A DNA stretch of 64,000 nucleotides, taken from Pigmentiphaga aceris (lineage in GTDB: Bacteria; Pseudomonadota; Gammaproteobacteria; Burkholderiales; Burkholderiaceae_B). Numbering within the stretch: position 1 is the stretch's first letter; each line of letters starts with the position of its first letter. The stretch covers positions 1,302,001 to 1,366,000 of the forward strand of contig NZ_CP043046.1 in assembly GCF_008119665.1 (NCBI RefSeq). The letters are read 5' to 3'. The translations under genes and the position numbers were made by a program. The notes under the pieces are model-generated. The model saw only the letters and a program-made list of their open reading frames with translations, searched no databases and was not told the DNA's origin. Shown piece by piece: positions 45,235 through 56,991 of the stretch.

Positions 45235-45304
45235 TAACGGGTTCTCGATTTGAATTTGCTGTTTAGCCGGTTGCGGTATCGATTCGAACGTCGCTATGTA
45301 GCCA

Positions 45305-45411
45305 GGCGCGGGTGTCGGGGGCGCGTCGCCTGCCCCGCTTGACTTAGGCGTCGGGTCTTCGCCCTCCACCTCGTCCAGAAGGGCAGTCGCCCCGCCCCCG
45401 ACACCCGCGCC
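45305..45411. repeat. Left-type terminal hairpin of element A
   Basis: Perfect 19-bp stem, 45305-45323 with 45393-45411. A 5-bp inner stem TGCCC/GGGCA closes the apical part, and the loop carries the constant sequence shared by all four arms. Outer stem word: GGTGTCGGGGGCG. Confidence 0.85.
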
Positions 45412-46288
45412 TTCAAGGTCGTTTGGTTAAAAGCTGATCCCGCCTTTGGGCGTTTGCCGTTTTTTCGGCTGCTTGGTGCTGCAAGCGGTTCTCGGCATTC
45501 CGTGGTCACCATTCTTGATCGCCACGCGGCTGGCCTTGGGGATTGGCTGGCCAGGTCGCCACGAAGCGACTCAACGGCTCACGCGTCTGGCCGTATATCA
45601 GTGGCCTTTTACGGCATTTCCACTTAAGGAAATTTGCACTTCTGCTTGATGGTGGGGTGACATCGAAGCGGGTGGCCGCACGGCAATGGCTTGCGGAGAA
45701 TGGCTGTGATGCAGGCGGTCGCTGGCTAGATGTGCTTGGCTTGAACGTTTGTTGAGTCAATCGGGCGCATTGTTGAGTGCTAAAGCCGACGCGCGTGCCA
45801 CGGCAGAACGTTTCAGCCGCACCAATAAGACCGTTCATTGCTGCTCCACTTCTGCACCAATGCGTTCTCTCAACGTTCGCGGTGCTTCAACTTTTTTAGC
45901 GACGAAGAAGCGCCTTCCTAACGCTGCTTGGTCTACGACGTATATGACGCGCCGCGCAATGGATAGCTGCTTAAAGCCGTCAGCGCCCCAGCCTTTCTCC
46001 CGCAAGCCGTTTAAGTGCGGCCACCCGCTTCGGTGTCACCCCACCATCAAGCAGAAGTGCAAATTTTCTTGAGTGGCGTTGCCGTAAAAGGCTATTGAAG
46101 AACCCACCGAATCGTGAGCCGCAAAAACCGCTTCGTGGCGACCTGGCCAGCCGATCCCCAAGGCCAGCCGCGTGGCATTAAAGGACGGTGGCCACCAAAT
46201 GCCGAGAACCAAGTCCAGCACCTAGCAGCCAGAAAAACAAACGCCGCCCAAAGGCGGCATACGTTTTTAACCAAGAAAGCTTGAAGGC

Positions 46289-46389
46289 GTGGGTGGTGGG
46301 GCCGTGGCGGCTGCCCTTCTGGACAAGGTGGAGGGCGGAGACCCGACGCCTAAGTCAAGCGGGGCAGCCGCCACGGCCCCACCACCCAC
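46289..46389. repeat. Right-type terminal hairpin of element A
   Basis: Perfect 28-bp stem, 46289-46316 with 46362-46389, around a 45-nt loop. The stem sequence (GGTGGTGGGGCCG within it) is unlike the left-type stem, while the loop (GGTGGAGGGCGGAGACCCG...) is the same. Confidence 0.9.
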
Positions 46390-46440
46390 GACTGGCTACG
46401 CAGCAACAACACCGCCACATCCAAGCCAGTCCAAACAAAC

Positions 46441-55908: not shown

Positions 55909-56008
55909 CGTTCCCAGCGTTGACTGTTCTTTAGTCGGTCGCGAACGAGTTGAAATTCGCTGTTTGGCCAGTTGCTGGTATCGATTCGAACGTCGCTTTG
56001 TAGCCAGT

Positions 56009-56111
56009 CGCGGGTGCCGGGGGCGCGTCGCCTGCCCCGCTTGACCTAGGCGTCGGGTCTCCGCCCTCCACCTCGTCCAGAAGGGCAGTCGTCACGCCCC
56101 CGACACCCGCG
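56009..56111. repeat. Left-type terminal hairpin of element B
   Basis: 17-bp stem, 56009-56025 with 56095-56111, with a single mismatch (GGTGCCGGGGGCG against the GGTGTCGGGGGCG expected). Same stem class as the left hairpin of element A. Confidence 0.8.
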
Positions 56112-56816
56112 CCTTCAAGATCGTTTGGTTAAAAGCTGATCCCGCCTTTGGGCGTTTGCTGTTCTGCTGGCTGCTTGGTGCTGGACACGGTTCTCGGCAT
56201 TCGATGATCACCATTTTTGATCGCTACGCGGCTGGCCTTGGGGATTGGCTGACCAGGTCGTCACGAAGCGACTCAACGGCTCACCTATCTGGGCGTCCTT
56301 TAGTGGCCTTTTAAATTTCGGCAGTTCGGTACATCACCAATCCTTTGACGGGTGGGGTGACATCGAAGCGGGTGGCCGCACGGCAATAGCATGCGGAGAA
56401 TGGGCGGGGCGCAGGCGGTCGCTGGCTGATTTGGCTTAGATCGAATGTTGCCAAAACACTGTTGAATTGGAAACGCTGCGTCGCGCGATGAATAGCGTCA
56501 TGAAGCCACCTGCCTCTCAGCCCTTCTCCCGCAAGCCTTTTACGTGCGGCCACCCGCTTCGGTGTCACCCCACCACCAAGCAGGCGCGCAAGTTTTCTTG
56601 AGTGGCGTTGCGGTAAAAGGCCGCTTAAAAATCGGCCGAAACGTGAGCCGGAGAAATCGCTTCGTGGCGACCTGACCAGCCAATCCCCAAGGACAGCCAC
56701 GTGGCGCTCAAGAACGGTAGCCATCGAATGCCGAGAACCGCGTCCAGCACCAAGCAGCCAGCAAAACGGCAAACGCCCAAAGGCGGGATCTGCTTTTAAC
56801 CAAACGTCTTTGAAGG

Positions 56817-56919
56817 CGTGGGTGGTGGGGCCGTGGCGGCTGCCCTTCTGGACGAGGTGGAGGGCGGAGACCCGACGCCTAAGTCAAGCGGGGCAGACGA
56901 CGCGGCCCCACCACCCGCG
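56817..56919. repeat. Right-type terminal hairpin of element B
   Basis: 17-bp stem, 56817-56833 with 56903-56919, perfect except one G-T wobble. Same stem class as the right hairpin of element A (GGTGGTGGGGCCG). Confidence 0.8.
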
Positions 56920-56952
56920 ACTGGCTCCAATTACCAAGCTGCCGCCTAATAA

Positions 56953-56991
56953 AATACGGCCCGTCGTGCTGACGCATCGACGGGCCGTATT
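56953..56991 (-). terminator. Terminator of peptide-binding protein gene
   Basis: Perfect 14-bp stem AATACGGCCCGTCG / CGACGGGCCGTATT with 11-nt loop, 32 bp after the stop of the minus-strand gene. On that strand it is followed by TTATTA. Confidence 0.88.

Follow-up and report, generated by a model that had tools for sequence, protein, structure and literature searches.

A family of 1.1-kb inverted-repeat elements with unlike arms and terminal hairpins at gene 3′ ends of Pigmentiphaga aceris, probably a mobile repeat

A non-coding element of about 1.1 kb (copy A) was found between an M48 peptidase gene on the forward strand and an amino-acid permease gene on the reverse strand in the window, the stretch of 64,000 nt of P. 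aceris DNA that was analyzed. It turned out to belong to a family that is spread across the whole 6.165-Mb genome, as a DNA search showed, and that has been found in this one bacterial genome only among the genomes and collections searched. The family is probably a lineage-specific, non-autonomous, foldback/MITE-like mobile repeat that has settled at gene 3′ ends. This reading is supported by the strict order of the arms, the pairing of unlike arms, the occurrence of both orientations, mosaic sisters of whole elements, and one site filled by a solo arm, with three empty counterparts.

Results

Two copies in the window

The inverted-repeat search of copy A yielded two pairs of inverted arms, 45290–45568/46129–46407 with 82% complementarity and 45575–45696/46000–46121 with 83%. 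The arm profile placed the left arm at 45294–45695 (minus strand, read outward, E 1.5e-122) and the right arm at 46001–46399 (plus strand, read outward, E 6.1e-123), leaving a centre of 305 bp at 45696–46000. Copy B is flanked by an LrgB gene (plus) and a gene for a family-5 solute-binding protein (minus). Its inverted arms, 55998–56271/56657–56930, are 89% complementary, and the profile assigned its left arm to 55996–56395 (minus, E 2.2e-110), its right arm to 56530–56929 (plus, E 9.5e-126), and a centre of 134 bp to 56396–56529. Neither centre matched any other centre of the 41 paired elements described below when both strands were compared. Outside its left arm, copy A has a tail (45253–45293, minus strand) that is common to copy B, where it starts at about 55954; the match of the copy A query to copy B begins at query position 3. 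The first-pass annotation, which was made from the letters of this DNA, had described the gap as one inverted-repeat element with homologous arms and had noticed a second copy at 55951–56926, and both statements agree with the inverted-repeat and profile searches. Its arm length of 405 bp and centre of 282 bp for copy A were close to the profile values.

Nested hairpins within the arms are an addition to that description. Each arm contains a hairpin with arms of 40 nt and 29 nt between them. In copy A, the left terminal hairpin spans 45299–45414 (minus strand; nested inverted repeat 45304–45343/45373–45412, 85%) and the right one 46283–46398 (plus strand; nested inverted repeat), and both are present in the model alignment. 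Folding of 46283–46400 gave −98.7 kcal/mol (z −10.7), and −91 for the complement. The terminal hairpins of copy B lie at 56001–56116 (minus strand; model alignment and folding) and at 56812–56927 (plus strand; nested inverted repeat with 40-nt arms, 80%, and model alignment). A terminator scan also detected a small stem-loop at 46243–46258 of copy A (plus strand), which has T-tracts on both sides and is weakly terminator-like. Just outside copy B, at 56953–56991, there is a perfect 14-bp inverted repeat, perhaps the neighbouring gene's own terminator.

Size and build of the family

A pattern for the hairpin core, with up to three mismatches allowed, matched the genome 87 times (44 plus, 43 minus), and the reversed control pattern matched it not once, so the repeat is not a chance occurrence. 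The arm profile resolved 87 arms at 46 loci, namely 41 pairs and 5 solo arms. The full arm count rests on the hairpin-core search, as the DNA search of the genome scored 40 of 78 candidates, and arms without the core were detectable only within the stretches fetched around the loci. The copy count that the first-pass annotation had proposed as a check thus went far beyond the two window copies, and its view that the repeat is a family of its own held. All arms except one were complete on the profile (86 of 87); the remaining arm, at locus L113, starts at profile position 22, without the first 21, and adjoins an IS3-like gene pair. The 41 pairs all had the identical inverted order, minus then plus, with the hairpins outermost, and the median length of the paired elements was 1096 bp. 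The centre measured 101–481 bp in 37 pairs and 1028–3058 bp in the other four. Comparison of the centres on both strands placed 26 in one group and further ones in groups of 6, 3 and 2, and left four alone, both window copies among them.

A coding origin of the arms was considered and rejected. Variation by codon position was 0.145, 0.140 and 0.132 (257 columns) without consistent periodicity, short sub-stretches varying more than the whole, and every one of the six frames had a stop in at least 58 of 74 units. The arms thus show no consistent coding signal and do not look like remnants of a coding family, and the absence of an own transposase frame, which had been noticed at first pass, was confirmed. 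A described transposon was not recovered either, as the databases compared (Rfam, plasmids, phages) gave no match.

Two unlike arms and multiplication of the whole element

Two arm types, X and Y, were distinguished, and 35 pairs consisted of one X and one Y arm each, with the orientations YX in 18 and XY in 17 cases. The other six pairs, the two window copies among them, were typed by eye as a second subfamily; their two arms are again unlike, and one arm is interrupted by an IS-like insert. Over the 35 elements, the identities of X arms and of Y arms correlated (Mantel r 0.24; reached by 30 of 2000 permutations), which is a weak correlation. The likeness of elements 2750133 and 2833440 takes in both hairpins and everything between them, and stops no more than about 10 nt outside the arms; for elements 3915064 and 3977391 it extends about 25 and 60 nt into the tails. 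In both sister pairs, blocks of near identity alternate with divergent blocks. Resolution of the arm tree was poor, with stars on 12 of its 84 inner branches, and in it 3915064 and 3977391 pair together at both arms. The multiplying unit is the whole element of about 1.1 kb, and gene conversion among the copies probably follows multiplication.

A giant hairpin formed between the two arms was also considered. Arm identity was 0.805 within one element and 0.809 between elements, so belonging to one element does not make two arms more similar. The arms thus do not co-evolve for pairing, and this structure was rejected.

By eye, the centres at L077 and L076 contain, near the Y arm, a repeated unit of about 19 bp that includes the palindrome GAACGTTC, and the number of these repeats is unequal between the sisters 3915064 and 3977391. 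Tandem arrays occur at element ends at L058:4297–4442 (39-bp unit, 3.8 copies) and L070:3521–3693 (18-bp unit, 9.6 copies); both contain the terminal GACTGGC or its complement and have 99% matches. At L060:5538–5615, inside the centre that carries an IS256-like insert (see below), there is a partial second copy of the inner-arm boundary, about 106 bp ahead of the right arm.

Cargo in four centres

The long centres of four of the 41 pairs contain inserts, IS-type genes in two cases and ordinary genes in two, and the arms are without such cargo. The centre at L060 carries two pieces of a Mutator-type (IS256-like) transposase (Pfam), and that at L113 an IS3-like gene pair, the name of which was read from the sequence. 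The IS-type genes in both of these centres appear to have been inserted later. IS3-like genes that agree in their first 40 residues occur at L110:4086–4934, next to the solo arm 1583002, and at L113:3386–4530, within the centre of element 2649937. Deletion by an IS may have produced the solo arm 1583002.

The ordinary genes are a GFA-like gene at L065 (name read from the sequence) and, at 939–3642 of L072, a LysR-type gene, an SDR gene and a GST gene, the latter two assigned by Pfam and the first read from the sequence. In 10 congeners, no match was obtained for the SDR protein at E 1e-80 or for the GFA protein at E 1e-20. Their second relatives in the genome were 57% (SDR) and 40% (GFA) identical.

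Position at gene 3′ ends and terminator-like stems

The distribution of the 46 loci was strongly skewed: 30 had convergent neighbouring genes, 16 co-directional ones, and none divergent ones, compared with 21 convergent, 162 co-directional and 43 divergent cases among 226 element-free neighbouring gene pairs, which were taken from the same fetched stretches and are no random genome sample. The convergent enrichment was highly significant (Fisher p 3e-15; 1e-9 against the 118 gaps of at least 80 bp). Genes around the loci were predicted with a codon-usage caller. The median distance to a gene 3′ end was 71 bp (76 distances) and that to a gene 5′ end near 207 bp (16 distances), with two 5′ distances, of 1 and 3 bp, that look like frames running up to the masked element and are probable artefacts. 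At first pass, a role at 3′ ends or an insertion preference for terminators had been suggested from copy A. Mapping showed a strong 3′-end association, so that part of the suggestion stands; function or targeting does not follow from it, because tolerance explains the association equally well. In the available text of PMC3049150, the pneumococcal BOX, RUP and SPRITE repeats and IS elements are biased likewise, and this bias is read as a sign of mobile parasites; an excerpt of PMC1525189 describes REP sequences as likewise frequent between convergent genes. Position alone is therefore no proof of function.

The position of the loci would also suit a domesticated two-way 3′-end insulator, the hairpins and terminator-like stems of which would stop or trim read-through and protect mRNA 3′ ends. 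We regard this as rather unlikely, though it has the best chance among the alternatives. In its favour, a small stem-loop with T-tracts on both strands is located about 40 nt ahead of the hairpin, and the hairpin region folds with a mean of about −92 kcal/mol outward and −75 inward. Under a strict criterion (a GC stem with a T-tract immediately after it; the T-tract profile covers 67 of the 87 units), terminator-like sites were present outward in 19 of the 87 units at a shuffled rate of 0.5%, and inward in 14 at a shuffled rate of 7.6%. However, the majority of units failed this strict test, and copy A had three terminator-like sites versus 1.8 expected. Some flanking genes, moreover, seem to own a terminator-like stem outside the element, as at 56953–56991 and, by eye, on both sides at L061, and the convergent bias is equally expected of a tolerated parasite, as reported for other repeats and IS (PMC3049150, in excerpt). 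Such a role and a mobile origin are compatible and do not exclude each other.

The terminal hairpin and its strand bias

The outer end of every arm is a hairpin of about 115 nt in which compensatory changes occur. Covariation was analyzed in an alignment of 74 of the 87 arms, and a covariance model was built from 32 arms. The paired fraction of the hairpin pair cells was 99.5%, versus 37–50% in slid controls, and 122 cells were double-changed, versus 38.6 in shuffles. Two of five covariation measures hardly exceeded the shuffles, namely double-change pairs (7 versus 5.0) and further pair types (26 versus 23.9). The wobble pairs were one-sided: the hairpin predicted on the outward strand contains 358 G-U and 2 A-C cells (consensus energy −135.4), and the inward prediction has 1 G-U and 52 A-C cells (−111.1). 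This asymmetry favours an outward strand that acts as RNA or as single-stranded DNA. Template-switch correction of quasi-palindromes can also give covariation and could partly account for the hairpin signal, but the strand bias of the wobble pairs makes it unlikely as the sole cause.

The same wobble bias would be expected if each element were a pair of outward-facing structured ncRNA genes, with each RNA ending in the hairpin, and the low folding energy of a 421-nt stretch with the right arm (RNA folding z −9.4) is also in agreement with this possibility, which we nevertheless consider quite improbable. The whole arm showed no outward preference (consensus energy −227.4 outward versus −234.3 inward, with 13 covarying pairs on each strand), and the first 275 nt of the arm folded better inward in all 87 units. 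For promoters of the sigma-70 type, the only type searched, copy A had 0 sites versus 0.3 expected. At the Rfam gathering threshold, the window contained three tRNAs only and no family for the element; below the threshold, up to E 5, there were 13 matches, mostly to microRNA hairpins.

An empty site and the search in other genomes

The solo arm at 4980956 sits between a plus-strand gene and a convergent gene that we take to be rsmA. In three of 10 congeners, the fetched flanks retained this convergent pair, with stop-to-stop gaps of 19, 7 and 16 bp, versus a gap of 476 bp here, of which 402 bp are the solo arm. At the M48 locus and at 4061026 and 2102513, synteny was lost within the fetched flanks in the 10 congeners, so these loci gave no empty site. 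The comparison of empty and filled sites that the first-pass annotation had proposed was therefore informative at one of four loci, and there for a solo arm and not for a full element. The M48 loci of the congeners held short inverted repeats only (25–41 nt, up to 83%). The congeners are distant (M48 54–59% identical, rsmA 74–78%), and unsampled closer relatives may thus carry the element.

The BLASTN comparison with relatives, also proposed at first pass, was run with the family on 60 genomes, the 10 congeners and 50 others, with at most 11 candidates scored per genome. It returned one 38-bp match only (L032 in genome G023); the surroundings of the match hold only short inverted pairs, and it was taken as chance. 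The hairpin-core motif was absent from 398 other genomes of the order, none of them congeners. The covariance model, applied with stricter filters and at most 60 candidates per genome, found nothing in 60 other genomes of the family, one of them a congener (G009). The viral contigs, plasmids and phages searched yielded nothing convincing. The sole exact motif match in the GTDB collection, L108 in a Rhodobacteraceae MAG, was taken as chance because the surrounding 701 bases contain no inverted repeat. The GTDB and viral-contig scans may leave out the window's own genome and very near ones.

Discussion

A mobile repeat as the best explanation

If the family is a mobile repeat, as we think probable, its multiplying unit is the whole element, made of unlike left and right arms in inverted orientation that flank a centre under loose constraint and carry hairpins of about 115 nt at their outer ends. 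We infer that an enzyme encoded elsewhere would act on one strand, where it would recognize the hairpin ends in the form of folded single-stranded DNA or RNA, and would copy the element into new sites. Copies would persist chiefly where they disrupt neither a promoter nor an operon, which means between convergent genes, and later gene conversion between copies would have generated the mosaics. The hairpin core is confined to the 87 arms in this genome, and thus no autonomous copy is visible; an autonomous partner may have diverged ends. A target-site duplication was not apparent, as direct matches between an element's own flanks were 5–8 bp long, once 10 bp, versus 4–9 bp for swapped flanks. 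With an identity of about 80% among copies, target duplications may have decayed.

More tentatively, and as an unlikely extension of the mobile-repeat reading, the elements might represent a bacterial foldback transposon class characterized by unlike arms, a strand-specific hairpin signal, an enzyme acting in trans, 3′-end sites and gene cargo (L072, L065). Mobilization in trans would then perhaps proceed through an RNA intermediate.

Inverted doublets, a strand-specific hairpin, a variable spacer, an extragenic location and the lack of a visible target duplication are also what a giant REPIN would show, i.e., a pair of inverted hairpins that a RAYT (Y1 tyrosine transposase) mobilizes. However, no match to the Y1 domain (Y1_Tnp, PF01797) was found at E 0.01 in this 98.8% complete genome, while 6 of 14 control genomes had one, and this largely refutes the REPIN/RAYT reading. 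A hairpin of about 115 nt in a 400-bp arm also differs from REPs, which are 20–40 bp long according to the available part of PMC3733652. We therefore consider this reading very improbable.

It appears equally doubtful that the family is a chromosome-organization site, with protein-binding loci distributed along the chromosome. Of the 46 loci, 31 fall into the middle half of the contig (p 0.026), which would be the terminus region if the ends of the contig hold the origin, a placement on which what is presumably an mnmG-like gene near 6.12 Mb bears. This bias is weak, however, both orientations are about equally frequent, and the element has a length of 1 kb, whereas chromosome-organization sites are short. 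Segmental duplication of a single intergenic region, for which the distance of 11 kb between the window copies and their common subfamily might speak, is refuted by the number of loci (46), and the flanking proteins differ as judged by their first residues and the flanks are unshared in the one compared pair that ends at the arms.

Comparison with known systems

MITEs are small, with a few hundred bp. The family has MITE traits, as it is non-coding, multi-copy and built of inverted repeats, but the median of its paired elements far exceeds that size. Nor does it conform to insertion sequences, since the arms have no coding signal and IS-type ORFs are present only in two of the four long centres. 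The bacterial MITEs RUP, ERIC/RU-1 and Correia/NEMIS are, in the accessible text of PMC2229807, likewise intergenic inverted repeats with many copies and RNA structure; they measure about 100–155 bp, in contrast to about 1.1 kb, unlike 400-bp arms and nested terminal hairpins here, where in addition no target duplication was seen and no related IS was found. REPINs (PMC3116915, in excerpt) are likewise extragenic inverted hairpin doublets with a spacer, and the doublet is the proposed moving unit. The 41 inverted pairs resemble such doublets, but the conserved arms are far longer than REPs, and no Y1 gene was found.

The pneumococcal SPRITE, as described in part of PMC3049150, is found near gene 3′ ends, in 15 of 30 cases between convergent genes, and has a terminator-like structure, as is the case here; it is short with AAAA/TTTT ends and does not have long unlike arms. 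The Caulobacter CIR (PMC2229807, in excerpt) likewise has two long inverted-repeat arms and a linker in its RNA structure, and is set apart, by description, by a GANTC motif at the terminal loop. A survey of stem-loop repeats, compared by description from an excerpt, comprises 92 family models, 67 of them of 31–200 bp and two above 1 kb (PMC2267715). Well-known kinds of repeats are tied to IS or RAYT (PMC3116915 and PMC2229807, both in excerpt).

No title or abstract opening found in the open literature described such an element, and this family of 1,000-letter repeats is apparently undescribed. A 1.1-kb family with unlike structured arms, covarying strand-specific hairpins, no visible mover and a position nearly always directly behind genes points to an unknown route of mobilization or to a large RNA "punctuation" module. 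Eukaryotic foldback elements have very long inverted repeats on either side of a variable centre, a build that the family described here shares, but in a bacterial host. Galileo is an example of such elements (PMC2775673, in excerpt).
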